The translations under genes were made by a program, and so were the position numbers. Positions 1,245 through 49,992 of a stretch of 49,992 nt of DNA are shown here, piece after piece. The stretch is from the IMG/VR virus record IMGVR_UViG_3300025011_000064, positions 1 to 49,992 of that record. One strand, written 5' to 3'. Within the stretch, counting starts at the first letter, position 1. Each line of letters begins with the position of its first letter. A model generated the notes under the pieces. The model ran no database searches. It saw only the letters and a program-made list of their open reading frames with translations, and was not told where the DNA came from. This DNA comes from a virus.

Positions 1245-1552
1245 TCTGATACCCTCGTCAGCGTAAATTCAAATCTGCGTCGCTCTGCTTTATACAATAC
1301 CCCTTTTGCCGTTCCGTCTGGCAAAATCTCCACGATATCGACAATATCTTTGAAAAATTCATCGTTGCGCGGGTGGTTATAATCAAGAATGTATCTGTTA
1401 CCAGTAGCAGGGGCTGTGTAAAACCAAGCCCCCTCAATCCCCACGGCCCGGTTGAATCCCTCCCCGCCTTGGATGACTTTGTGATCATTCAGCGGATTGA
1501 AGATTGCCGCCCAGCCTAAGCATGTCACTAACCATTCTCCGTCCAGACTCAT
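1241..1552 (-). CDS. Unknown small protein between endolysin and spike
   Basis: A 103-residue protein of unrecognised family. The sequence alternates short beta-like stretches (GVLYKAERRRFEFTL near the end) with Gly/Asp turns, suggesting a small beta-rich domain. It overlaps the end of the endolysin gene by 4 nt and the start of the beta-helix gene by 4 nt, so it sits in one tight operon. Its ATG lies 7 nt after a copy of the 25-bp palindrome, whose AGGA end serves as ribosome binding site. No catalytic motif is visible; a chaperone or structural accessory role is only a guess from position. Confidence 0.7.
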   Translation of the reverse strand: MSLDGEWLVTCLGWAAIFNPLNDHKVIQGGEGFNRAVGIEGAWFYTAPATGNRYILDYNHPRNDEFFKDIVDIVEILPDGTAKGVLYKAERRRFEFTLTRVSE

Positions 1553-2157
1553 AATGATTCCTGTGTTGATTTAATTAACGAAGCATCATAACATCCTTCA
1601 GACAGCACCCCTATCAAGTCCGCCACTCGACCAACCCACCCGGAGAAGTATTCAGCATGGGTCTTACGCAAGGAGTAATAGTAGAAGAGTCTCACATTTA
1701 GGAGACTGAGGGTGAGTAGGTCTTGAGGGCAGTACTTGAGGGCTTCAATGGTAAGAGTGCCTATCACCCCATCTATCTCTATATAGTTACGTGGAAGATA
1801 TCCATTGATGGAGGCCTGGAGCCACTTACCAGCCCGCGCCTTTCCACAATTCACGGCTGAGTCAAAGTACAAGAGGTCAATAGGGCAGGAGAGGTTAGGT
1901 GAGAAGTAATCCCTGAAGTAGATTTCAGTGGCATCTTCCAGTGTGAGACTTACTATATCAAGCTCAGGATAAGCCTTCTGACTAATCCCCCACTTAGTCA
2001 CCCCACCTGAGTCCCTATTCACCCTCCCCATGCCCTCATGGGCCAGCACAAACTGGAGACATTGGGTGAAGCGGAGGGGATAAGAGGATGGGAAATCTGC
2101 CCCAGATAAATCACTGTGTGTGATAGGTGGAGTCATGATCCTACTATTTTTGTCCAT
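1549..2157 (-). CDS. Endolysin, GH108-type muramidase with peptidoglycan-binding C-terminus
   Basis: The 202-residue protein has an N-terminal GH108 (N-acetylmuramidase) domain, about residues 28-130. The catalytic Glu is probably E41 in AHEGMGRVNRDSGGVTKWGIS, followed by the family pattern of an Asp-x-GG turn, then T-x-x-GI. The C-terminal part (DGVIGTLTIEAL, about 115-130 onward) matches the PG_binding_3 region usually paired with GH108. It cuts the glycan backbone of peptidoglycan at lysis. No signal peptide is seen, so it needs the holin-like proteins. The start at 2157 is chosen for the perfect AGGAGG seven bases upstream; longer in-frame starts exist up to 2181. It overlaps the upstream membrane-protein gene. 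Confidence 0.88.
   Translation of the reverse strand: MDKNSRIMTPPITHSDLSGADFPSSYPLRFTQCLQFVLAHEGMGRVNRDSGGVTKWGISQKAYPELDIVSLTLEDATEIYFRDYFSPNLSCPIDLLYFDSAVNCGKARAGKWLQASINGYLPRNYIEIDGVIGTLTIEALKYCPQDLLTLSLLNVRLFYYYSLRKTHAEYFSGWVGRVADLIGVLSEGCYDASLIKSTQESL
1560..1584. repeat. 25-bp start-associated palindrome, copy 1
   Basis: Family pattern: left arm GCTAYRTTRATT, one central A/T, right arm AATYAAYRTAGC. Read on the minus strand this copy ends CACAGGA, 7 nt before the ATG at 1552, and forms its Shine-Dalgarno. It lies inside the 3' part of the endolysin gene. Confidence 0.8.
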
Positions 2158-2426
2158 AGGTAACCTCCTATCAACGCACAAAGAGCAGCGACGAAGCCTA
2201 AGATGCCTCTTTTAATTAACACCCTTACTTCTCTGCCAAATCTTAAGTCACTTTGGAACTCTGCTACTGACTCTGGATCATCTACCTTCACTCCACATAT
2301 GAAGAGGATCTCTTTTACGGCTGCCCTCGCAGCCCGTTCAGGCTCTCTGCACCCTGGGTTGGGGCAGCTAGAGTGATCATCCTCTCTGCGGAAAGGCCCA
2401 GTGTATCCTGGGTCACTCCCACTCAT
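2133..2426 (-). CDS. Small membrane-anchored phage protein, holin-like
   Basis: This 97-residue protein has a basic/acidic N-terminus, a helical centre (AARAAVKEILFICGVKV, then DPESVAEFQSDLRFGREVR) and one C-terminal membrane segment, about residues 75-94. This layout is common next to phage endolysins, and such proteins are annotated as holins or accessory membrane proteins. The gene is coupled to the small terminase by ATGA and overlaps the endolysin start. Inference: part of the lysis system. A second holin candidate lies at 46279-46518, so which one forms the lethal hole is open. Confidence 0.72.
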   Translation of the reverse strand: MSGSDPGYTGPFRREDDHSSCPNPGCREPERAARAAVKEILFICGVKVDDPESVAEFQSDLRFGREVRVLIKRGILGFVAALCALIGGYLWTKIVGS

Positions 2427-15075: not shown

Positions 15076-15224
15076 GCAAATGGTGGCGGAATTGGTAGAC
15101 GCGAAGACACTGGTGGTTCTTGATTACTGACTTAGAAATCCAGCGTACCTGGTGAGTGTTCATGAGCACTATGACTCAGGCAGTACCTCAAACATCGTGC
15201 AGGTTCGAGTCCTGCCCATTTGCT
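15076..15224 (+). tRNA. tRNA-Leu-like gene with oversized centre
   Basis: The ends fold as a good tRNA: an 8-bp acceptor stem (GCAAATGG with CCATTTGC, 15076-15083 and 15216-15223), a leucine-type D-arm (15086-15102) and a perfect T-arm (GCAGG, loop TTCGAGT, CCTGC, 15199-15215). Between D-arm and T-arm lie 96 nt, where a normal leucine tRNA has about 33. The centre can form two extended hairpins: CTGG/CCAG with an inner TTCT/AGAA, and ACCT..GAGT with ACTC..AGG. A CTTAGAA sequence (15131-15137) looks like a Leu(UAG) anticodon loop but lacks a correct 5-bp stem in the unspliced form. It may be a tRNA with inserted or intron-like sequence, or a tRNA mimic. Its 3' end overlaps a palindrome copy. 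Confidence 0.6.
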
Positions 15225-15246
15225 TCATTAATTAAATCAACATAGG
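15222..15246. repeat. 25-bp palindrome, copy 9
   Basis: Begins within the last two bases of the tRNA-like gene and ends CATAGG, which with the next A forms the ribosome site for the ATG at 15254. Identical in all 25 bases to copy 11 (22536). Confidence 0.88.
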
Positions 15247-15253
15247 AATCCAA

Positions 15254-19810: not shown

Positions 19811-22357
19811 GTGAAACCCAAAGCCACTTACGTAAAACCCTCAGGCTCCCCATCTGATGCTAAGTATCTAATAGTAGGGGAACAGCCTGGAATCAACGAG
19901 GTCCGTCGCGGAGTCCCTTTCATAGGCCCTGCTGGTCAGGAACTAGAATCCGATCTCAACGCCGCAGGTATAAACCGTGCTGATTGTTACTTCACTAATG
20001 TAATCAAGGACATCGACAGACCCCTTGGTTACTATATTGAGTTCGGCAAGAAGGGTGGTCCTATCATCCACCCTGAAGGACAGGAGTACATCAACCTTCT
20101 GGCCCAAGAACTGGCTGCCTGCTCAGCCAAAGTAATCATCTCCCTCGGCAACGTGGCCCTCTTTGCACTCTCTGATCGTAGTGGCATAAACAAGTGGAGG
20201 GGATCAGTTATCAAACCCACTCTTCTAAGTGACAAGATACTCATCCCCTCACTCCATCCCGCTACTATCATTCCCCCCAAGAATGTTTACAAGAACAAAC
20301 GTCTTCTCATCTGGGACCTCAAACGGGCTAAGTTAGTACAAGAAGGGAAGTGGCAATCTAAATCCCGCCACATTATCATCCGTCCATCCTTCTCCCAATG
20401 TCTACAGTTCCTTGAAACCTGCCGCCAGTATGGTCTCCTGGGTAACACTATCTACTATGACATCGAGGTAGATGTCTTCAACGGGGAGATGACTTGCATA
20501 TCCTTCGCATATTCTCCCACCGATATAATCTCCATCCCTTTCACCCATGAGCATGGGGACTACTTCACTATCCCCCAAGAAGCTGAGATCCTCTTGAAGA
20601 TAGCCTATATTCTCGAACATCCTGACATCCCCATTGGAGGTCAAAACCTAACCTTCGACTCTCATTACATGCTCCGTAAGTATGGCATAAGAGTTCGCAA
20701 CATCCACGATACGATGGTGGCTCAGAAAATTCTCGCACCGGACTACCCAGTAGGCCTCCACTTTGTCTGCTCTATGTGGACTGACATCCCTTACTACAAA
20801 GACGATGGGAAGTATTGGCTAAAGGGTATCGGCTCATTCGAGAGTGGGTGGAACTATAATGCTCTGGACTCGGCAGTCTGCGCTGATGCATTGCCTAAAC
20901 AATTGGCCGCAATCAAGCACCAGCAAAATTACTACACCTACCTACGCAAAACCGCGGCTATCCCTGCCTATGTCTACATCATGGAGAAGGGAATCCGCAT
21001 CAATGTAGCCAGCATGGAACAAGCTTACGATGATATGGGAAGGGAAGCTGATGCTACCCTCAAGCAACTTCACACTATGTGTGGCTTTGAACTCAACCCT
21101 AACTCACCCAAACAGGTCGCAGGATATTTCTATGGACTTAAGAAACTCCCACCTTACAAGAACAAAGATGGTGGAACAACAACTGATGAAAAGGCGCTTA
21201 AGAGAATTTCTAGAAAGGGTTTCAAAGAGGCTGCATGCATCCTTAAACTTCGAGGACTCTCTAAAGAAAGATCCACTTTCCTGGATCCAAATAAAGTGGA
21301 CACCGATGGGAGAATGCGTTGTTCATACAATCCCGTGGGAACACGTTTTGCCAGAGCTTCCTCCAGTGAAAACATATTCGGAACGGGTAACAACCTACAG
21401 AATCAACCACATAGAGTACTTACTCATTTCCTTGCCGACTCTGGTTACGTCTTCTACGGCATGGACTTATCTCAAGCAGAGAATAGAATCGTAGCATACG
21501 TAGGCCGCATTACTCAAATGATCGAAGCCTTCGAGAAAGGTGAAGACATCCACGGACTCACCGCCCGTATCATGATCAATATTTTCTATGGCCCTGAAAA
21601 AGGTGCCTCTATTGACATCCGTAGTATGGCCCCCATCGGAGATGGCAAGCACACTTGGCGTGACTGGGGCAAGAAAGCTAACCATGGTCTCAACTATGAC
21701 CTCGGCTATAAGACTTTCAGTCTATACAATGAAATCACTGAGCGCGATGGCAAGGTAATCGTCGACATATACCACCGCGCCTACCCTGGTGTACGAGGAG
21801 GCTTTCACGCTTATGTCAAACAATGTATTAACAAAAATAGGACCCTCACAAATCTCATGGGCCGAAAGACAGTCTTCACTGATCGTCTTGACGATGCCCT
21901 CTACAAAGATGGCTACGCTTGCATCCCACAAGGGACGGTTGGAGATCTTATTGACCAACGGGGTCTTAATTACATTTATTACAACAGGTCCCCTCTATTT
22001 CGATACGTCGAGCTTCTCATCCAGGTTCATGATCAGATCGGTTTTCAAATCCCAACTCCGTACCATCCAGACCATCCGGTATCGTGGGAAGACCATTCTA
22101 AAATTCTCACCCTGATCAAAGCCTCCCTTGAGATCCCCCTCTACACTCACTACAAACACAAGTTTGTAATTCCAGTGGACACTACGATGGGAGTTTGTTT
22201 TAACAAAGAGTTAAGTTTTGATAATCTAAAGAAACGTTACCCGGCACATATAGCAACTAACCTGACACAGGCCAAGGATCTTGACTCATTAGATCCTAAC
22301 TACTTAGAACAATCTTATTGGGAGATAACAAAGGGATGGCTACCGACGATAATCTAA
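19811..22357 (+). CDS. Uracil-DNA glycosylase / 3'-5' exonuclease / family A DNA polymerase fusion
   Basis: An 848-residue protein. Residues about 1-180 are a family-4-like uracil-DNA glycosylase, with GEQPG at 23-27 and HPAT at 149; the Fe-S cysteines usual in that family are missing (TNVIKD instead of TNVVKC). Residues about 205-390 are an exonuclease domain: DIE at 217-219, NLTFDSHY, YNALDSAV. The polymerase palm and fingers follow: motif A DLSQAENRI near 552, motif B GKKANHGLNYDLG near 620-632, motif C VHDQIGF with HD at 740-741. It replicates phage DNA with built-in proofreading and perhaps uracil sensing. The GTG start is used with GGAG upstream. Confidence 0.93.
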   Translation: MKPKATYVKPSGSPSDAKYLIVGEQPGINEVRRGVPFIGPAGQELESDLNAAGINRADCYFTNVIKDIDRPLGYYIEFGKKGGPIIHPEGQEYINLLAQELAACSAKVIISLGNVALFALSDRSGINKWRGSVIKPTLLSDKILIPSLHPATIIPPKNVYKNKRLLIWDLKRAKLVQEGKWQSKSRHIIIRPSFSQCLQFLETCRQYGLLGNTIYYDIEVDVFNGEMTCISFAYSPTDIISIPFTHEHGDYFTIPQEAEILLKIAYILEHPDIPIGGQNLTFDSHYMLRKYGIRVRNIHDTMVAQKILAPDYPVGLHFVCSMWTDIPYYKDDGKYWLKGIGSFESGWNYNALDSAVCADALPKQLAAIKHQQNYYTYLRKTAAIPAYVYIMEKGIRINVASMEQAYDDMGREADATLKQLHTMCGFELNPNSPKQVAGYFYGLKKLPPYKNKDGGTTTDEKALKRISRKGFKEAACILKLRGLSKERSTFLDPNKVDTDGRMRCSYNPVGTRFARASSSENIFGTGNNLQNQPHRVLTHFLADSGYVFYGMDLSQAENRIVAYVGRITQMIEAFEKGEDIHGLTARIMINIFYGPEKGASIDIRSMAPIGDGKHTWRDWGKKANHGLNYDLGYKTFSLYNEITERDGKVIVDIYHRAYPGVRGGFHAYVKQCINKNRTLTNLMGRKTVFTDRLDDALYKDGYACIPQGTVGDLIDQRGLNYIYYNRSPLFRYVELLIQVHDQIGFQIPTPYHPDHPVSWEDHSKILTLIKASLEIPLYTHYKHKFVIPVDTTMGVCFNKELSFDNLKKRYPAHIATNLTQAKDLDSLDPNYLEQSYWEITKGWLPTII

Positions 22358-22545
22358 ATCTTGATGAAGCTTCAATATTCTTTGAAATTCCCACATTCAC
22401 TCCTACAAATTTAGTGGGTAAGACGCTGAAAATCTGCAGATTTACAGGGACTGATTATGGTAAAGGTTTTGACGAATCAGTTACTATAATTGTAGGTATA
22501 GATGTAAATACTGGGGTAATATATGTACTGGATATGCTTCATTAA
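22336..22545 (+). CDS. Unknown 69-residue protein
   Basis: Starts MATDDNLNLDEASIFFEIPT, inside the last codons of the polymerase gene in another frame, with GGAG further upstream. Beta-like second half (ESVTIIVGIDVNTGVIYVLD). No family recognised. Its stop codon lies in a palindrome copy. The overlap with the polymerase suggests coupled synthesis. Confidence 0.65.
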   Translation: MATDDNLNLDEASIFFEIPTFTPTNLVGKTLKICRFTGTDYGKGFDESVTIIVGIDVNTGVIYVLDMLH

Positions 22546-22560
22546 TTAAATCAACATAGG
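22536..22560. repeat. 25-bp palindrome, copy 11
   Basis: Same 25 bases as copy 9. Ends CATAGGA, the ribosome site of the helicase-like gene at 22567 (6 nt to the ATG). Confidence 0.88.
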
Positions 22561-22566
22561 AACAAT

Positions 22567-40722: not shown

Positions 40723-42270
40723 TCATATAATCAGCCCCATCTCCATAGCACCCATCTCACTCTCACATTCCAACGTATCGTACTCGTCAGATGGGGGCTC
40801 TTCTTCCATCTCATCAGAAGGGTCGAAATAGATAGCATGCTTATCCATTATGAAAGTGATATAAGCTAACGCATCCATCAAGTCCCAGAGTTTAGACTTG
40901 GGGAAGCTAAGGAGTTGACCCTCTAATTTACCACAATTACTTTTGTTATGATAGATATAACCCAGCCTATAATATGGCCCCAGGGTAGCTATTCTTTCTG
41001 CTTTCCCCTTCTCATTAACTCCTCTCTTAGCACTCAACTCAACCAAGATAGGGTGGATGTTACGTTGGCGGCACTCATTCTCAACTGGCTGCTTTATAAA
41101 CTCACTCAACCCCGTGGTCTCATACCCAAGCATAAAGGAGTTGTAAAATTTCAACTGTCGAAACATCTCATCATAGAGTTCATCTGGATAGACTTTTCCA
41201 CTGAAGAGCTCTCTCACAAATACTTTCCTACTCGTGCGATCTACAGCCACTGTAATAATGGCAGTATCGGCAGATTTCAACTTAACTGTCTTAGCAGGAT
41301 CTACTATAGTAATATGATGCATACCATAGGTGCGACACTCTTCTTTATTCGGAAGTACTATCTTATCCAACTGGTCATCAAAATACTTAAAGTATTCCTG
41401 CTTGAAGACTGCATCTTCTTTGGCTATAGGAATATTCATCCTCTCCATATAGAACTCATCAAGAGTCCCCTTCCTACGATGCTCCTCAACCTCTGCCATC
41501 ACCTCCTCATCGGTCATGTAGTTAGTATCAAGGGACTTATAGTTTTCATCACAGATGGAGAGTTGTACAGTCTTCCACTCGGGAGACTCCATTAAGTCGG
41601 CTAAGATAGAATCCTCATGTTTGATGGTATCTATATAAATAAAGGTAGTCTTCTTCGCACTATACCTCCCCTCAGTCTTCATGAGATCGCCATCAAACCA
41701 GGTACGGAGTTTCTCACGATTCTCCTTACTACGGATTTCATCTTTATTCTCTAAGTCATCTATGATGACTAGATCTGGGCGATAGTTAGCCCAGTTAAGT
41801 CCACGTACCTGCTGCCCGGCGCCACGTGGGAGGATGAATGTGGAACCATAAGCAGTCCAGGCACTCTTGGAGAAGGTCTCATCCATGGACTTATCTTCAC
41901 CAATAACATCTTTGATGTTTCCAAAGAGGGCCTTTACCTGGGGATTGGACAGTAAGTCACGCTTAATATTCTCAGTTTGCATCTCCGCAGATGTAGCACT
42001 ATTACTTAGGTATACAATAAAGTTAGCTAACCTAAACAAGATAGCTCTCATTACTACTGTCCTAGCAATAGAGGTCTTCCCAATACCCCGAGGTGCAGCA
42101 ATAGCTATCTTATGATACCCAGAGTTGATTAGGTCAAAGATGGCCTGATGAAGAGATGAGAAGTCTGCATAAAAGATCTCAGGGAATAGTGTGCCGCAAC
42201 ACACCTTGATGTCAATCACGCAGAGACTTAGAATCTCTTCTAACTCTTGATCCTTAGCTAAATCTGTCAT
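40723..42270 (-). CDS. terL: Terminase large subunit
   Basis: A 515-residue protein. The ATPase half has Walker A APRGIGKTS (59-67) and Walker B DLVIIDDLE (166-174). The nuclease half begins HITIVDPAKTVKLKSADTAI with catalytic Asp near 324, then YETTG near 376 and a C-terminal KSKLWDLMDALAY with the last acidic residue. It pumps DNA into the prohead and cuts the concatemer. ATG at 42270 is coupled by ATGA to the spike gene; the longer frame would overlap that gene. The small subunit is far away at 2423-2968. Confidence 0.93.
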   Translation of the reverse strand: MTDLAKDQELEEILSLCVIDIKVCCGTLFPEIFYADFSSLHQAIFDLINSGYHKIAIAAPRGIGKTSIARTVVMRAILFRLANFIVYLSNSATSAEMQTENIKRDLLSNPQVKALFGNIKDVIGEDKSMDETFSKSAWTAYGSTFILPRGAGQQVRGLNWANYRPDLVIIDDLENKDEIRSKENREKLRTWFDGDLMKTEGRYSAKKTTFIYIDTIKHEDSILADLMESPEWKTVQLSICDENYKSLDTNYMTDEEVMAEVEEHRRKGTLDEFYMERMNIPIAKEDAVFKQEYFKYFDDQLDKIVLPNKEECRTYGMHHITIVDPAKTVKLKSADTAIITVAVDRTSRKVFVRELFSGKVYPDELYDEMFRQLKFYNSFMLGYETTGLSEFIKQPVENECRQRNIHPILVELSAKRGVNEKGKAERIATLGPYYRLGYIYHNKSNCGKLEGQLLSFPKSKLWDLMDALAYITFIMDKHAIYFDPSDEMEEEPPSDEYDTLECESEMGAMEMGLII

Positions 42271-44051
42271 GGAATTACAGTCCCTAACCCAGCCCACCCG
42301 GTGTTGCTAGTACCTGTACGTTTTATGTAGATGGCGTACTCACCACTACCCAAAGGATTGTTTGTATTTACGCAGATTGATCCAGGTCTTGCTGATTTCC
42401 CCGCCTCAGGAGTTCCGGCATAGGAGGTCAGTATAGGATTATTAGCACCGCCTATCATCATATCTTTGTATAGTGCCCAAAGGTCAGATGATATATCATA
42501 TGTCAACTTATTATCAGCGGCTGTCTCATCCCTAAAACGCAATACATCCTCAAACATACTAATAGAAATGGCGTCTGCTCCAGTATCCATTACAATTTTA
42601 GGCAGGACACTTTTAATATCTGTGCGTAATACAGTCACGTTGTTTAAATTCTTTATGTCCCCACTAATTGAAAGGTAGGACGTAGAGGTATCTTCAACAT
42701 ACTGATCAGTGGTGAGGACGGAAGATAGCCACTCACCACCACTTATCTTTGTATTCTCCTGAGCATTCAGAATAAGCCTACCGCCACTTGCATAACCCCT
42801 GATCTGATTCTGCTCGTTATGGCAATAAATAAATTCGTGATGAGAACTGGCCGCATTCGAAGGTAAGTCAATTCCGAGTTCCCAGGCTAGAGAAAAACTA
42901 CAGAATGCAAATATATTGTGAGCTCCATCGTCGACCCGTACATTGGTTCCTTGGTAACTGAGATCACACGATATAAACTTGTTATTATTTACATGCCCTG
43001 TTCCTGTTGAAACAATATCAACCCCATGGTAGGAATTAGTTCCTGCTCTATCTCCTAGAAATATACAGTCGTTGAAGGTGTTATACCAAGTGCCTGACGC
43101 CCCAGCATCCATTAATAACTGAGCAGACCCGCCAATCATGAGAAGGTCATAAAAAGACCCCCTCTTTATATCCCTCATGTAAAAAAGAGGTCCAGCATAA
43201 TCAAGGCGCTGGAATGTAAGATCTTGCATGCGAGGATTATACCCTATAGACTCTGCTATTAGATCACCGTCAAGAGTAAAGGCTGCATCAGTACTTGTTA
43301 CCCCAGATAGCAATCCTGAAGAATCAGCTCTATCAAGAGTTGCATCTGTTATTCCCCTATATTTTCCATTAGGATTAAAGTTTACAGTTGTCTCGCAATA
43401 ATACTTGCCAGTAAACGCAACCTCAACGCTCTGCCCAGCAGACACTATGGCGGCATTAACGGCTGTAGCCATGGGGGTTGTTCCTGGCGTAGTATTTTCT
43501 GCCCATATATCTGGATCAATTTCTGAAACTCCAGAGTTACTTAAATCAATAGTAACATTTTCCCCTGCCCATGTTAGTCTAGGTGTGTGCTTATAATGCA
43601 ATGGAGCGAATGTTTCTACCCCACCCCCTGCAACCCCCTGTACCACACATCCTTGCTCGGGCTCGAAAGTTATGGTTTTAGGTGGGGATACAGTAGTACC
43701 ATCAGGTATAGTAATAGTCCCTGTACATTTAAGAGTGGTAGGGGTAGTACCTATATCAGTAAGTGCAGTAGCCAAAGATGCCCAATCAGAGACATTTACT
43801 AATTGAGTAGATAACTTATTTTCAATAGTGGTATCTACCGCATTATTTCCACCTTGATTATAGATTACTCCTTCGGCAGAAGGGGTTATCTTACCGGCTG
43901 CAGTAATATCACCCCCAGTGATGCTGCCCGTAGTATTGAGATTCTTATCAGTGTTAGTCCAATCTGTGCCCACATTTAGTGCAGAGACATAAGAGGGGAG
44001 AAGAAGTAACCCAAGAATTCCTGCATTGATTAAATTAACGTAGCGTTTCAT
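42267..44051 (-). CDS. Tail-spike-like beta-helix protein with signal-like N-terminus
   Basis: A 594-residue protein. The first 24 residues (MKRYVNLINAGILGLLLLPS, then YVSA) look exactly like a Sec signal peptide. The body has right-handed beta-helix character: EGVIYNQGGNNAVDTTIENK, WYNTFNDCIFLGD, HVNNNKFISCDLSYQGTNVR and FCSFSLAWELGI. The C-terminal RPGSICVNTNNPLGSGEYAI motif with TSNTGWAGLGTVIP is common at the ends of phage spikes. It probably binds or cuts surface polysaccharide. The 5' codons contain a palindrome copy in frame. Overlaps the terminase start. Confidence 0.78.
   Translation of the reverse strand: MKRYVNLINAGILGLLLLPSYVSALNVGTDWTNTDKNLNTTGSITGGDITAAGKITPSAEGVIYNQGGNNAVDTTIENKLSTQLVNVSDWASLATALTDIGTTPTTLKCTGTITIPDGTTVSPPKTITFEPEQGCVVQGVAGGGVETFAPLHYKHTPRLTWAGENVTIDLSNSGVSEIDPDIWAENTTPGTTPMATAVNAAIVSAGQSVEVAFTGKYYCETTVNFNPNGKYRGITDATLDRADSSGLLSGVTSTDAAFTLDGDLIAESIGYNPRMQDLTFQRLDYAGPLFYMRDIKRGSFYDLLMIGGSAQLLMDAGASGTWYNTFNDCIFLGDRAGTNSYHGVDIVSTGTGHVNNNKFISCDLSYQGTNVRVDDGAHNIFAFCSFSLAWELGIDLPSNAASSHHEFIYCHNEQNQIRGYASGGRLILNAQENTKISGGEWLSSVLTTDQYVEDTSTSYLSISGDIKNLNNVTVLRTDIKSVLPKIVMDTGADAISISMFEDVLRFRDETAADNKLTYDISSDLWALYKDMMIGGANNPILTSYAGTPEAGKSARPGSICVNTNNPLGSGEYAIYIKRTGTSNTGWAGLGTVIP
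44020..44044. repeat. 25-bp palindrome, copy 17 (inside coding sequence)
   Basis: Lies inside codons 3-11 of the spike gene, encoding RYVNLINAG at the start of its signal-like peptide. Both arms match. Confidence 0.82.
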
Positions 44052-44499: not shown

Positions 44500-44514
44500 A
44501 GTAATATCTCCATA

Positions 44515-44862
44515 TTAAGGTACGTAAGTAATTCCAGTTAAAAGGCCTGCTGTAAAGGTAAGAGATGCTACATCCCCACTTCCCCCACCTCCAAAGGTGC
44601 AAGTGCCATCTAGGACAGTAGTCCCTGCCAACTGGGCAGAGGTTACATTGTGGGGATTACTTGTGTCATTAAGATGGCTAGTTAAATCTCCATCTGGAGC
44701 ATAAGCAGCATCTGCCTCTCCTTTAGTAATTAAATGTTCAGGAAGCACAGCAGCAGCATTTACTCTGATAGGCCCGTCACTTTCAATAGCATTAACCGTG
44801 GTGGCATCATCGTAACTGTGAACATATCTCATGCTTCCCAAGTGTATATGCTTAATAGCCAT
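44515..44862 (-). CDS. Short tail-fibre-type protein
   Basis: A 115-residue protein with SHLNDTSNPHNVTSAQL near residues 62-78, the SHxxxxxPHxVTxxQ motif of phage fibre shaft repeats, and a Gly-rich end. Start at 44862 lies nine bases after a palindrome copy, with AGGA as ribosome site. May be a linker or collar fibre. Confidence 0.72.
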   Translation of the reverse strand: MAIKHIHLGSMRYVHSYDDATTVNAIESDGPIRVNAAAVLPEHLITKGEADAAYAPDGDLTSHLNDTSNPHNVTSAQLAGTTVLDGTCTFGGGGSGDVASLTFTAGLLTGITYVP

Positions 44863-44871
44863 TTTAATTTT

Positions 44872-44896
44872 CCTGAGTTAATTTAATCAACATAGC
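44872..44896. repeat. 25-bp palindrome, copy 18
   Basis: Good copy; minus-strand end ACTCAGGA precedes the ATG at 44862 by 9 nt. It is the last copy before the repeat-free spike region. Confidence 0.87.
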
Positions 44897-44898
44897 AA

Positions 44899-45399
44899 TC
44901 AATTTGCCAGTCCGAGTCTATCTATCTCAAGGTAGAATGTAGCACTGGCTACACCGTTATCAGTAAGGGCTACTATCCAAGGATCACCTGACCATGCTGT
45001 AGGTGTGGATTGATCTACACTACCATCAGTCGGCCCTTCAAAGAATGTCCACCTGGTGGAAGTATCATCTACCAAGTCCAGCCCCTTAACAGTTGCGGCG
45101 ATAAGTACCTTACCATTTGTACTGGTGATTGATAGGTCACTATCTGTGGTAGGGGCTACACTCCCTGGACGAGCTAGTAGAGTGTAGCTTAGCCCCTCAA
45201 GAGATTTCATAATAGAATCACTCAGTGTAACTGAAAGAGTTCCATCTGTGTGAGCTGTACATAGGAGGACAATCCTAGCAGCGTTAAAGCTCCCACCTCC
45301 ATACTCAGTTGTTACTTTGGTACAGGTTCCTACATCAGCCCCACTAACCATTGAGGGCAGGGCTAAGAATGCGAGGATGAGTAATTTGATATATCTCAT
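44899..45399 (-). CDS. Small secreted-type protein with Sec signal peptide
   Basis: A 166-residue protein. Residues 1-20, MRYIKLLILAFLALPSMVSG, form a clear signal peptide; the mature part starts ADVGTCTKV and is beta-rich (ARIVLLCTAHTDGTLSVTLS, then VIAA-like strands and ATFYLEIDRLGLAN). The start at 45399 has AAGGAG upstream; the frame extends further back, but that part belongs to the truncated holin copy. Likely exported or a structural appendage; function unknown. Confidence 0.75.
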   Translation of the reverse strand: MRYIKLLILAFLALPSMVSGADVGTCTKVTTEYGGGSFNAARIVLLCTAHTDGTLSVTLSDSIMKSLEGLSYTLLARPGSVAPTTDSDLSITSTNGKVLIAATVKGLDLVDDTSTRWTFFEGPTDGSVDQSTPTAWSGDPWIVALTDNGVASATFYLEIDRLGLAN

Positions 45400-45400
45400 T

Positions 45401-45604
45401 TTAAATCTCCTTTTCACTCCCATTGAGTTTCGATCTTTGACTTTTGTCATTCTTAATTGACCTAAGTTTGCTCCTTATCACTGGCGCCATTACACCGACT
45501 GAAACAAGGGCGGCCATGATCAGTTCTATCCCGAGCTGCTTGTGCTCCGCGGTAAGTTCAATCCCGCGACTTGCGACGGCCAGGACACGGCCCTGTATGT
45601 CTCT
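45401..45604 (-). pseudogene. Truncated second copy of the holin gene
   Basis: The frame reads GRVLAVASRGIELTAEHKQL and continues GIELIMAALVSVGVMAPVIR, closely matching the intact holin-like protein at 46279-46518 (ELTDEHRQLGIELIMAALVS). Relative to that copy it lacks the start codon and first residues and has an exact 30-nt in-frame deletion that removes the first membrane helix core (between direct ACGGCC repeats). An internal ATG could still give a one-helix protein, for example an antagonist, but no good ribosome site is seen. Confidence 0.72.
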
Positions 45605-45702
45605 TTACCACGGTACGCGCCTGCCGGCAAGGTATCGTCACGCATGGCCACCCGGCAATTCATGCAGTGCTGACAGGCTTCCGCTTCAATCTTGACGGTC
45701 AT
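45526..45702 (-). CDS. Small CxxCxxC protein coupled to the PP-loop ATPase
   Basis: A 58-residue protein, MTVKIEAEACQHCMNCRVAM and onward, with a CxxCxxC cluster at residues 10-16. GGGAGG precedes the ATG, which overlaps the ATPase stop (ATGA). From about residue 38 the frame reads out of phase through the truncated holin copy, so the C-terminus may be an artefact of recombination. The Cys cluster could bind zinc or Fe-S and act with the ATPase as sulfur or metal partner; this is inference. Confidence 0.6.
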   Translation of the reverse strand: MTVKIEAEACQHCMNCRVAMRDDTLPAGAYRGKETYRAVSWPSQVAGLNLPRSTSSSG

Positions 45703-46295
45703 TTTACGCCTCCCATCGCCAGAAGGCAACGCGTACTCGTATCCCCCGGGATGTTGGATTCCCATGAAAATAATTTCTTGATCGTTTGCAGTACCTCTGG
45801 GAGGTTCTGTTTATGCTCTACCCAATAGTCAATTTTTCTGACTTTAGGGGGATGCATCGTGCCTAGACTCAACTTATTTCTGGTTGCAAACTCCTTCGCT
45901 TCCTGAAGGTGCCGACCATATTCACCGTCGTCTTTCCCGTCTGAGCCCGTTATAACAACCCCTCCTCTTTTGTGTGCCAGTGCATACCCAAATGCATAAT
46001 AATCCGACTGGAAGCAAGTACACATGCCGCAGACGTCTGTTTTTCTGGCCTCGTGGTCGGAGATATAACTATCGTACCAATCCGCACGTTTAAAAAATGT
46101 TACGTGTTCACACCCAGTAACTCTCACCACGTTCTCAATGTTTCTACGGGCCTGCGGGCTGAGGAATCCATTATCGTATGTGTATGCTAAAAATGTTTTC
46201 CCTGCCAAAAACAACGCTGCTGCAACTCCGCACGAATCTTTTCCGCCAGATAGGAATAAAACCGGCATAACCAGCCGCTCAATTTTTATGGTCAT
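45699..46295 (-). CDS. PP-loop (N-type ATP pyrophosphatase) enzyme
   Basis: A 198-residue protein with the PP-loop SGGKDSCG near residues 14-21, followed by AYTYDNGFLSPQARRNIENV, a DVCGMCTCF cysteine group and GSDGKDDGEYGRH. PP-loop enzymes adenylate a carbonyl or tRNA base and release PPi (QueC, TtcA, PAPS reductase, sugar amidotransferases). The YDNGFLS...NI pattern is closest in feel to N-acetyl sugar amidotransferases (WbpG/PseA), which would suit surface-sugar modification, but tRNA or DNA modification cannot be excluded. ATG at 46295 overlaps the holin-like gene. Lies in a cassette between two holin copies. Confidence 0.78.
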   Translation of the reverse strand: MTIKIERLVMPVLFLSGGKDSCGVAAALFLAGKTFLAYTYDNGFLSPQARRNIENVVRVTGCEHVTFFKRADWYDSYISDHEARKTDVCGMCTCFQSDYYAFGYALAHKRGGVVITGSDGKDDGEYGRHLQEAKEFATRNKLSLGTMHPPKVRKIDYWVEHKQNLPEVLQTIKKLFSWESNIPGDTSTRCLLAMGGVK

Positions 46296-46518
46296 TGGTC
46301 TTTTTCTTTGCCCTCTTGAGCGACCGCAATTTGCTCCGAACAACTGGCACCATGGCACCAGCTGAAACAAGAGCGGCCATGATCAGTTCAATCCCAAGTT
46401 GCCTATGCTCATCGGTAAGCTCAATCCCACGACTTGCGAGGTAGGCCGCCACAACGGCCATTATTGCCACGGCCAGGACACGGCCTCTGCTTGCCGATTT
46501 TGCTATTGAGTCTGTCAT
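46279..46518 (-). CDS. Holin-like two-helix membrane protein
   Basis: A 79-residue protein with two membrane segments (residues about 12-30, VLAVAIMAVVAAYLASRG; and about 42-60, LGIELIMAALVSAGAMVPVV) and a strongly basic C-terminus (RSLKRAKKKTNDHK). This is the layout of class II holins. ATGA coupling to the upstream beta-helix gene. It would permeabilise the inner membrane for the endolysin at 1549-2157. A damaged second copy lies at 45401-45604. Confidence 0.75.
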   Translation of the reverse strand: MTDSIAKSASRGRVLAVAIMAVVAAYLASRGIELTDEHRQLGIELIMAALVSAGAMVPVVRSKLRSLKRAKKKTNDHKN

Positions 46519-47909
46519 CTGTGATTACCCATCCCTGAGAATGAACCGCCTCCGTGGTTTTGCGAGAATAAAAATCCACCAATGTTTGTTCCGTTAATAC
46601 CCAATCCGCGTCCTGGGTATGATTCGGACGCAATTGCTGTGTAACTTATTTCATCGTAAGTTATATCAAAAGATACAGCAACAATATCATTGGCATAATA
46701 ACCTAACGATGAAATATCTACTCCGCTGTCATTTGGTGGTGGGCCAATAGGTAAGATTGTTTTATCGGATGCATCTATCCACAAGTTGTAATTAAAAATA
46801 TCAGGAAAATTCTTAATATCATCAGAATTTGCATTATCAGACAACTCAAAAGCTAACCCATCAATTACATTATTATAAAAATCTCCATGAACTGACCATT
46901 CCTGATTGTCGCTATTTAAATACATAAAAAATGCCCCCCATACTGGTATACTCAGCGCGACGTTATTATAAATACTTATTTCGCCAGAATTTGTTAAATC
47001 ATTTGTAAAATAAAACGGATTATCTGTGGAGTAGAATAAATTTTCATATATCGAACCATTAAATTCATCACCCTGCACAGCATATGATATACCACCTACG
47101 CAGTTTATAAATTTATTATATCTAACCGTCGCATTATTTATTGCCCCTTTATAATATATACTACCTCCCTGATATAAGTTTCTGTTGTCTATAAATAGAT
47201 TGTATTCGATCAATATAGTATTTAGACTGAACAGCCTTATGCATGTGTTTCTGTTGTATGTTGGGAGAGCAATTGAATCACGGAATGTATTATGTGAAAT
47301 TACAGTATTTGTTGTTGTGTCATTAACTGGTACAGATAGCATTGAAGGATTATAATCCCCACCATTTTCAATACCAGTTAAAAAATCAACACCAGATACT
47401 TGTATAAAATCACCTGATACAGTAGCGCCGCCATCTATTTGTATACCGTAGGAACTACCTACCAGTGTACCGATCAATTTTACGTAATCTGCCTGTAATG
47501 TTAATAACCAACCGGAGTCGTCACCACCATCGGTGAATACCGCTATTTCACCAGGGTAATTTGTTACAACTATAGGATTTTCAACGGTTCCTGACACTGC
47601 CAAGTTATTATTACTATATGCAAAGCTTGCTTGACCAGCATCAGCATAAGAACCGCCTCGGAGATAAATCAAACTTCCCGGCGCAACAACTGCTGAAGCG
47701 CCAGCGAGATTTAGCCACGGATTACCGATAGTTCCATCCCCTGTTGAGTTATCGCCAGATGGTGAACAGTAGTAAGTATTTAATGGATTGGCTAAAAAAT
47801 CGGAGACGAATGGAGGAACACCGACCGGCGGAAATAATTCAGATACGGCATAAGAATTTCCAGGTGTAAAGAAAAATAATAATAGAAATACAAACAATAT
47901 ATTAATCAT
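46515..47909 (-). CDS. Signal-peptide right-handed beta-helix protein, AT-rich
   Basis: A 464-residue protein. Residues 1-20 (MINILFVFLLLFFFTPGNSY) are a signal peptide. NTYYCSPSGDNSTGDGTIGN, then PWLNLAGASAVVAPGSLIYL are the classic opening of pectate-lyase/DUF1565 beta-helix enzymes; Asn-rich rungs follow (NTVISHNTFRDSIALP). The gene is visibly more AT-rich than its neighbours and uses many A/T-ending codons, a sign of recent acquisition. ATGA coupling on both sides. Probable polysaccharide binding or depolymerase. Confidence 0.78.
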   Translation of the reverse strand: MINILFVFLLLFFFTPGNSYAVSELFPPVGVPPFVSDFLANPLNTYYCSPSGDNSTGDGTIGNPWLNLAGASAVVAPGSLIYLRGGSYADAGQASFAYSNNNLAVSGTVENPIVVTNYPGEIAVFTDGGDDSGWLLTLQADYVKLIGTLVGSSYGIQIDGGATVSGDFIQVSGVDFLTGIENGGDYNPSMLSVPVNDTTTNTVISHNTFRDSIALPTYNRNTCIRLFSLNTILIEYNLFIDNRNLYQGGSIYYKGAINNATVRYNKFINCVGGISYAVQGDEFNGSIYENLFYSTDNPFYFTNDLTNSGEISIYNNVALSIPVWGAFFMYLNSDNQEWSVHGDFYNNVIDGLAFELSDNANSDDIKNFPDIFNYNLWIDASDKTILPIGPPPNDSGVDISSLGYYANDIVAVSFDITYDEISYTAIASESYPGRGLGINGTNIGGFLFSQNHGGGSFSGMGNHR

Positions 47910-48742
47910 CTGTCACTCGCAAAGCCATTTACAAGAATTTCATTTATTTCGCTTTCAGTCAACAAGTCAGACATTGTAAAACATTCGTCTACTGACCCAG
48001 CCAGCAAGTCCGCATTAAAAGCACGACGGCCCGACACTAGTGCTGCTGTTCCACGGAAAACAGCCAGTGTAGCGTCCGCTGTTTGATATGCTGAGACTGC
48101 GGCGTCCCCATCCTCACCTACATATAGATTAACTCCGACATTGCCGTCAAATGTCGCCACAACCAGAGTCCATATTTCTGCTGTAGCTCCAACCGTGGCA
48201 GGCAAATTCACTACATTTCCCCATCCAACCTCTGACCACTCTACTGCAAAATCATCAGCCGATTGATCATAAAATATCCTATACGACATTTGCCCCCCGG
48301 CTAAATCCCATTTCCCTATTATATGCATATCAGCTGCTGGAGCAGCATCTAGCCTAACCCAACAACCGATGGAAAATTCATTCTGCGCTCCTGTTGTTGA
48401 TTTTCCTGGGAATGTACTCGGAGCTAGTGATGCGTCAGTGCAAGAAAGATATTCGTTTGCATCTATTGCTGCATCAATGTTTACGCTTGAGTTACCCTGG
48501 ATATAGTTGGTGGCATCCTGAGCAACATTACCATTCCAGCTAAGGTCATTATTATTATCTGAGCCGTCCAAAGACGAAGTGGCCGCATCCTCAAAAAACC
48601 ACCATGAGATGACGTTTGAATTTATAGTAAAATCGGTCCCTGCTAATGCAATTTTCTGTGAAGCCCCCTCAATATACCCATTCGTGCCAGCAAAACAGAT
48701 AACAGGGATAAACCAGAACAAAAAAGTGAGTTTTTTAATCAT
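47906..48742 (-). CDS. LamG/concanavalin-like protein with signal peptide
   Basis: A 278-residue protein. Residues 1-18 (MIKKLTFLFWFIPVICFA) are a signal peptide. The rest is a LamG/ConA-like jelly roll: NVISWWFFEDAATSSLDGSD, FSIGCWVRLDAAPAADMHII, WTLVVATFDGNVGVNLYVGE and the last-strand SVDECFTMSDLLTESEINEI. Such domains bind carbohydrate. ATGA link downstream, 8-base overlap with the upstream fibre gene. Probably an accessory sugar-binding appendage or a secreted lectin. Confidence 0.82.
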   Translation of the reverse strand: MIKKLTFLFWFIPVICFAGTNGYIEGASQKIALAGTDFTINSNVISWWFFEDAATSSLDGSDNNNDLSWNGNVAQDATNYIQGNSSVNIDAAIDANEYLSCTDASLAPSTFPGKSTTGAQNEFSIGCWVRLDAAPAADMHIIGKWDLAGGQMSYRIFYDQSADDFAVEWSEVGWGNVVNLPATVGATAEIWTLVVATFDGNVGVNLYVGEDGDAAVSAYQTADATLAVFRGTAALVSGRRAFNADLLAGSVDECFTMSDLLTESEINEILVNGFASDR

Positions 48743-49992
48743 TACTCAATGCCCTCGAATACTTAAATTCCACTCCGGTCACGGTAAAATCTTGCGCGTA
48801 GGTGTCAGTGGTTGTCGCAAGCCGTATCACAGCGGCGGCGCACTCTTCACCGGCTGCAATACTTCCTGCCGGGGTGATCGCCGATGAATAAGCGGTGTCG
48901 AGGTTGTCATATTGCGCATAAGTGGCATCTGCCGTTAAACTTGTGGTCTGCGCCGTGCCAACTGCCAAAGTACTTGCCTCACTGTTTGCATAACATGCCA
49001 GAGCCACGGAAAAGGCAACTACTTCAGTATTAGCCGGGGCCGTTGCGCCAGATACCACACCAGTCACACGAGCTGTTACGGTGGTGCCGGTGAAGTCTGT
49101 CGGCACTCTCCAGATAAAGGTCACATCCTCATTTGCTGCGCCGTCAAATGCCCGTCCTACCTTCCGAGTTGTCCCGGTAATAGCCGCCGCAGCCGCTGGA
49201 GCTGTTGAGCCATCTTCTGCCCACTCTATCGGGAGCCAGTCGGCATCCTTGACGGTTATCTCATTGGTGTTCAGGTCAAGATTGCCTCCGAGCTGGGGCG
49301 TGGTATCTTCAACGACATTAAGCAGCGGGGTTATCCAGGTTCCGACAGAGGCAATCTTTGTGGTTCCGTCCCCCATGGTTTGGTTGCCAGGAACAGCGAA
49401 GGCCATCACTTGCCCGGCGGTAGGATCAGCCAATGGTGGAATGTGAATCCTGCTTGCAGAAACGTCGCCATAAATACCCCATCCAAGATAGTTTGTGCCG
49501 TTGTCGGTATCCTCCAGGAAATAAATATACTGTCCACCTGAAGCAGTGCCGGGGGCAGAGAACGAAGAGGCGATTACTGGCTTGTTGAAAGTGAAATCAG
49601 TATCACTAACCGTCATTGTCGGGTCTGTCCCGGCACCAGTATCAAATGTGTGGACCTGTGAACCTCCGGCGGCAGTGCCCCATGTCACACCGTCATAGGC
49701 GGTAAAGTCCACACCACCTCCCAGGGTTTCGGCGAACGTCTCTAATGCCTGGATAGCCGCTTTTACGGTTTGATTGTCCGTAATCGTTGATCCGGTGAAG
49801 GCCCCGAGGTTAACCGCGCCTTCCGCCACACCTGAAAGAGTGATCAAATCGTCAACTGCAAGGCTGGCAGCAGTTGGAACAGCAACCCATGACCTGACCC
49901 CGGCATCTGTTGAGCTAAGGACAAATCCAGTTGTGGCTGGATTATCCAGGGATGGTTCATACACCCCCGCCCCGATAATGGCCTGGATCTCT
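48735..49992 (-). CDS. Tail-fibre-like protein, N-terminus cut by window edge
   Basis: The open frame enters from the right edge; 418 residues are visible. EIQAIIGAGVYEPSLDNPAT, GFVLSSTDAGVRSWVAV and AAIQALETFAETLGGG are typical fibre-shaft sequence; LLNVVEDTTPQLGGNLDLNT is a common fibre repeat; the C-terminus is a beta-sandwich (FIWRVPTDFTGTTVTARVTG, then FTVTGVEFKYSR). It overlaps the LamG gene start by eight bases. On a circular map it would be in frame with the beta-helix gene at 1-1244. Confidence 0.8.
   Translation of the reverse strand, partial: EIQAIIGAGVYEPSLDNPATTGFVLSSTDAGVRSWVAVPTAASLAVDDLITLSGVAEGAVNLGAFTGSTITDNQTVKAAIQALETFAETLGGGVDFTAYDGVTWGTAAGGSQVHTFDTGAGTDPTMTVSDTDFTFNKPVIASSFSAPGTASGGQYIYFLEDTDNGTNYLGWGIYGDVSASRIHIPPLADPTAGQVMAFAVPGNQTMGDGTTKIASVGTWITPLLNVVEDTTPQLGGNLDLNTNEITVKDADWLPIEWAEDGSTAPAAAAAITGTTRKVGRAFDGAANEDVTFIWRVPTDFTGTTVTARVTGVVSGATAPANTEVVAFSVALACYANSEASTLAVGTAQTTSLTADATYAQYDNLDTAYSSAITPAGSIAAGEECAAAVIRLATTTDTYAQDFTVTGVEFKYSRALSND

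Follow-up and report, generated by a model that had tools for sequence, protein, structure and literature searches.

A compact PP-loop gene between a holin-like gene and a holin relic in the late region of a tailed-phage genome

Morons and mosaic joints at gene borders are familiar features of phage genomes. The locus described here resembles them in that an extra gene sits among core late genes, its joints fall at gene borders and it is absent from relatives. It differs from them in that the extra gene overlaps translationally with both of its neighbours and a holin relic marks one of the joints. What we see is phage mosaicism whose cargo gene is unusual and compact; we call its product P0001. 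The gene looks like shuffled cargo and not like part of the core phage machinery.

Among described proteins, the N-acetyl sugar amidotransferase (NASAT)/WbuX/WbpG family (TIGR03573; 8WEX, PMC10607449) shares with P0001 an SGGKDS PP-loop and a Rossmann-like domain, the sequence similarity being weak and the fold similarity clear. Its defining feature, according to PMC10607449, is a zinc-binding tetracysteine, CXXCXn[GN]XCXXC. Unlike NASAT, P0001 lacks both the N-terminal zinc tetracysteine (only 15 residues precede its PP-loop) and the C-terminal part, and it carries a CXXC-C motif that is absent from 10 of 11 canonical NASAT rows (the exception being L186). These rows are the 11 of 15 fetched loci that passed a filter which itself demanded a tetracysteine before the PP-loop, so the set is informative only for the missing CXXC-C. 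NRPS-embedded and stand-alone bacterial PP-loop domains (loci L073-L152) have SGGKDS, DNG, CxxC and DT...C in common with P0001, whereas P0001 is a free 198-aa protein without their zinc ribbon and their approximately 58 C-terminal residues. In the [4Fe-4S] sulfur transferases LarE, TtuA, NcsA and TtcA, too, the PP-loop precedes a CXXC and a single distant Cys, and their fold class is that of P0001, but no sequence similarity places P0001 inside any of them. In PMC9283937, the CXXC-C cysteines of Thermotoga maritima LarE (Cys92, Cys95 and Cys172) are described as holding a [4Fe-4S] cluster. Full-text literature searches, judged by their listings, turned up no publication about a phage gene of this kind.

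Layout of the locus

The window, by which we mean the whole stretch of DNA analysed, is an IMG/VR virus record, linear and 49,992 bp long. It carries tailed-phage genes for a terminase (40723-42297), portal-like and major head proteins, DNA polymerase A, primase and ligase, with the late genes on the minus strand. The locus reads, in transcription order, fibre-like gene, holin-like gene A, PP-loop gene, small gene, holin relic B and the gene at 44899-45399 (Table 1). The initial annotation had noticed an intact holin and a decayed copy on either side of the PP-loop and small genes, and a BLAST of the window against itself bore this out. Holin A shares 17 nt with the start of the PP-loop gene, whose stop in turn meets the start of the small gene in an ATGA overlap, and the end of relic B extends into the ribosome-binding site of the gene that follows.

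Table 1. Features of the late-region locus, in transcription order (window coordinates)
Feature	Coordinates	Strand	Evidence and remarks
Fibre-like gene	46515..47909	-	ORF list; C-terminal end HGGGSFSGMGNHR; stop overlaps holin A start
Holin-like gene A, 79 aa, intact, two hydrophobic segments	46279..46518	-	91% identical protein in G001
Seam 1, ATGACCATAAAAATTGA	46279..46295	-	Exact match; encodes holin C terminus (DHKN*) and PP-loop start (MTIKIE)
PP-loop gene, 198 aa (P0001)	45699..46295	-	SGGKDS 16-21, C89, C92, C190
Seam 2, diverged seam copy (3/17 mismatches), small-gene start	45686..45702	-	Pattern scan
Small CxxCxxC gene, 58 aa as read	45526..45702	-	ORF list; L169 comparison
Holin relic B	45401..45592	-	BLAST; lacks a start, codons 1-11 and 30 nt of helix 1
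Gene downstream of relic B, signal peptide-like start MRYIKLLILAF	44899..45399	-	30% identical homologue in G001

Gene A is a putative holin, judging from its size, its hydrophobic segments (residues 8-34 and 40-62), its basic tail and the presence of a GH108 endolysin gene on the same strand (window 1549-2181). As expected of a phage holin, its product is predicted to be a small membrane protein with at least two TM helices and is encoded in the late region. It has no holin family match in Pfam, PHROGs or NCBIfam and no match in the phage records.

The PP-loop protein

No family in Pfam, PHROGs or PADLOC matches P0001, and its best curated family, WbuX (E = 5.5e-5), scores 22.7 bits, below the cut-off of 203.2 bits. 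Bacterial PP-loop domains do align with it, the full-length matches spanning residues 12/14-197 at 25-31% identity (alignment A1). We compared it with the best 80 of 283 relatives confirmed among 590 bacterial stretches, chosen by SGGKDS and DNG patterns. A scan found CxxC in all 80, DT...C in 78 of them and an N-terminal zinc ribbon in all but one. P0001 keeps CxxC and DT...C, lacks the ribbon and stops 8 residues past C190, where the relatives continue for approximately 58 residues or more. Its C89, C92 and C190 align with the CXXC and distant Cys of the relatives, with one other alignment putting C94 in the place of C92. P0001 is related to NASAT/WbuX-like domains, from which it has diverged very far. 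The PP-loop domain with zinc ribbon and CXXC-C (L073-L152) is itself widespread, being found in several phyla and mostly in large NRPS-like proteins.

At E = 1e-5, P0001 matched 12 of 80 Krumholzibacteriota, 2 of 301 Chloroflexota and 1 of 398 Pseudomonadota genomes, counts that include the centre genome, which was chosen for having a match. Three plasmid records matched, all of them NRPS-type PP-loop domains or unannotated, with one annotated as NRPS. No relative was found in phage records, in 50 terminase-relative records, in L169, L016 and L017 (0 of 3) or, with the single query, in genome_contigs (0 of 79). In viral_contigs the single query confirmed 2 of 5 candidates, both of them contigs with the window's own sequence, and alignment A1 recovered none (0 of 59). 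The cargo is a PP-loop protein pared down to an ATP site and CXXC-C, and has no relatives in the searched phage records, nor in the viral contigs beyond fragments of the same sequence.

Modelling from the single sequence gave a pLDDT of 36.7 and was discarded, and an alignment-based model reached a pLDDT of 72.9 and a pTM of 0.73. The C-terminal stretch that bears C190 is poorly defined (pLDDT 43-56 around C190 and <50 at residues 192-198). Fold comparison with the alignment-based model returned NASAT 8wex (VIA Z = 11.4 over 185 residues), NcsA 6scy (11.3) and the Methanococcus maripaludis LarE structure 8cnz (10.5). NAD synthetase scored 12.0 and many PP-loop enzymes of other functions tied with NASAT, NcsA and LarE, so the fold does not choose among functions. 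In a BFVD fold search, the phage proteins matched were of the QueC, PAPS reductase and Asn synthase types, a similarity that goes no further than the shared fold. A profile of alignment A2 matched 8cnz at 1e-9 with CxxC aligned. In a 28-row tree, which holds no LarE, TtuA or QueC rows, P0001 fell on the CXXC-C side (97/96), a position that is uncertain given its very long branch.

We consider ATP-dependent sulfur (or ammonia) transfer the likely activity of P0001, as its motifs suggest. The protein would bind ATP at SGGKDS, adenylate a substrate carbonyl or carboxylate and swap that substrate oxygen for sulfur from a [4Fe-4S] cluster on C89, C92 and C190, or for ammonia; the cluster at these cysteines is predicted by analogy. 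The sequence does not single out any of the substrates (sugars, tRNA or DNA) that the initial annotation had put forward. It is rather doubtful that P0001 instead forms amides on host or phage sugars in the manner of NASAT and is not a sulfur transferase. Although WbuX is its best curated family and NASAT 8wex is among its top structural matches, the tetracysteine is missing from P0001, and its CXXC-C is in turn missing from nearly all canonical NASAT rows. We also think it rather unlikely that the gene is a truncated, inactive recombination fragment. Both of its ends coincide with seams, the relatives' zinc ribbon and some 58 C-terminal residues are missing and the branch is very long, all of which fit a fragment, but the 198-codon frame is open, the ATP-site and cysteine motifs are intact and the gene overlaps in order with both neighbours. 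If P0001 is active, it would offer a minimal example of an ATP-dependent sulfur or amide transferase, and with it a test of how little of the PP-loop fold suffices.

Holin relic, small gene and seam

Holin A and relic B are 80.2% identical over 126 nt (46314-46439 and 45451-45576, respectively; E = 6e-26). The relic frame (GRVLAV...SEKEI*) is preceded by a TAA four codons upstream, with no ATG, GTG or TTG in between, in agreement with the initial annotation of a decayed copy without a start. That annotation placed the copy at 45401-45604. The 45401 end is confirmed, but at the other end detectable homology stops near 45592. It also described a 30-nt deletion between ACGGCC repeats; there is indeed an in-frame gap of this length, equal to 10 residues of the first hydrophobic helix, but the hexamers (coding strand, GGCCGT) do not bracket the missing 30 nt, being located at one of its edges and in its interior. 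Sequencing error can be excluded, as contigs 3300025000_001510 and 3300024999_001146 carry the same 5122 bp at 100% identity.

Comparison of the 48 codons common to A and B gives 5, 6 and 17 differences at first, second and third positions (binomial P = 0.003 for the third-position excess; dN = 0.11, dS = 0.72). Holin A and the holin of G001, a relative described below, differ at 3, 3 and 20 positions over all 80 codons. Divergence so biased to third positions implies that relic B diverged while functional and is not a copy that decayed in place. Relic B is best understood as a separately evolved allele that was functional during most of its history and was broken later, and its divergence probably took place in another phage lineage. 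The mostly synonymous differences rule out a single holin split by the cargo.

The same bias would fit equally well two selected genes in one genome, that is, an old tandem pair of working paralogues of which B broke recently, with the PP-loop gene unconnected to the second copy. We regard this as unlikely: holin A matched only 3 of 10 records searched, once each (the intact holin of G001 and two fragments of the window's own relic), and no record has two intact copies, although the relatives are few and partial. Relatives with two intact holins were also what the initial annotation had named as evidence against its own scheme. No holin of the A/B type was seen upstream of the terminase in the terminase relatives L019, L025 and L032.

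Two relatives inform on the locus. G001 (IMGVR 3300025010_000098, 46 kb) is a different phage that has the fibre module in common with the window; its holin is followed directly by a 36-aa gene (MTIKIEAAACQHC...). L169 (IMGVR 3300024999_000410, 23 kb) has a similar fibre tag, followed by an unrelated 77-aa TM gene ending in DDHKN* and a 32-aa gene (MTIKIEAESCQHCMNCRVALADDTLPVSDNIF). The C-terminal fibre tag is common to the window and G001 in 14 of 14 residues, and 61% identical over 18 residues with L169. Both relatives thus have the order fibre gene, holin or other TM gene, tiny CQHC gene, and neither has the PP-loop gene. G001 is the kind of single-holin relative without cargo that the initial annotation had suggested looking for. 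Of the nearer terminase relatives, L017 and L018 break off within the 44899 gene and L016 has little sequence before the terminase, which makes all three uninformative on the locus. In viral_contigs the 44899 gene occurs just in the two contigs identical to the window, and window 44500-47000, searched as DNA, had no match in the phage records.

The small gene starts at 45702, an ATG at 45765 falling inside the PP-loop gene, and runs out of frame into the decayed holin, as had been noted from the sequence. Residues 1-28 match the small gene of L169, the agreement ending at about DDTLP, and the tail is out-of-frame relic B sequence. The initial annotation took this gene for a cargo partner of the PP-loop gene, a role we rule out because in G001 and L169 it follows the holin or TM gene directly, with no PP-loop gene. 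The small gene is, as far as three sequences allow, an old neighbour of the holin, with the holin/small-gene pair older and the PP-loop gene the addition. The L169 small protein had no match in the phage records. Judged from the sequence alone, a frameshift fusion of the relic with the small gene was rejected, the relic-frame stop lying four codons upstream and no clear slippery heptamer being seen by eye.

The 17 nt of seam 1 are also, identically, the overlap of TM gene and small gene in both G001 and L169. When up to 3 mismatches are allowed, exactly two copies occur in the window, and they mark the two ends of the PP-loop gene; the chance expectation is 0.15, and at least two copies were found in 0 of 100 shuffles. 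In viral_contigs the pattern occurs in eight stretches, two in the TM/CQHC context (G001 and the contig of L169) and six in other contexts. Released from its double-coding role, seam 2 has accumulated changes at 3 of its 17 positions, which implies either that the insertion is not very recent or that its source had diverged. We therefore read the joint as being formed by the overlap seam as much as by the holin.

Origin of the arrangement

Our main reading, to which we give a probability of roughly 0.55, is that the locus is a mosaic joint in the fibre/lysis late region, where a recombinant block was placed onto a resident holin and the PP-loop protein carries out ATP-using sulfur or ammonia transfer. 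The block, made up of holin A, the PP-loop gene and the small gene, would have been joined to the resident genome within the holin that this genome already had, of which relic B is what remains, while holin A does the work. The PP-loop gene could have entered the seam before or during this joining. This order of events draws on three sequences, the window and the two seam-bearing relatives found.

The initial annotation saw the PP-loop and small genes as cargo that entered together by homologous recombination between holin sequences. Holin homology does lie on either side of the two genes and a single-holin relative without the PP-loop gene exists, yet we find this scheme improbable, as the small gene follows a TM gene without the PP-loop gene in G001 and L169, and the borders of the PP-loop gene are 17-nt seams and not holin sequence. 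What survives of it is that the PP-loop gene looks like inserted cargo. At most the downstream joint, at codon 12 of relic B, may be due to holin homology.

Contigs from two other samples share an end at base 45823, within the PP-loop gene, which points to a branching of the assembly graph at this position. Misassembly at this point is unlikely, since the parts of P0001 on both sides of it (around residue 158) align to the same bacterial proteins.

More tentatively, the seam (DHKN*/MTIKIE) might be a recurrent exchange point of late modules, at which TM genes on its left (related or not) and CQHC variants on its right are swapped between phages. Cargo, a compact Fe-S PP-loop enzyme for instance, could then be inserted there in a translationally coupled state. 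A doubly coding overlap could in this way serve as a joint that lets cargo enter without breaking a crowded late operon, because a gene that arrives at this point would take over a start codon whose use is coupled to the holin. It is possible that the overlap seam is reusable.

Several further features of these genomes were observed. A near-identical tag, HGGG(S/H)FSGMGN(H/F)R, ends different fibre-like proteins just before the holin or TM gene (window 46515-47909, L004 1697-2488 and L169 2182-3771). The same fibre-type gene (PATTGFVLSSTDAGVRSWV...) lies at both ends of the G001 contig (1-956 and 45309-46256) in two different versions, and occurs with different continuations in window 48735-49992 and L169 1-665; these versions look as if fibre cassettes had been exchanged. 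The genes after the G001 holin (L004 2938-3362) are cysteine-rich (MNCIGCKTPCCN...) without a Pfam match, one of them being ferredoxin-like by eye. Elsewhere in the window, the DNA polymerase A gene (19811-22357, plus strand) encodes an N-terminal uracil-DNA-glycosylase-type domain (residues 12-154) within the same 848-aa protein. Finally, a repeat of approximately 30-37 bp occurs at 15218-15248, 22532-22562 and 1550-1586, two copies being direct and one inverted, with 89-97% identity.
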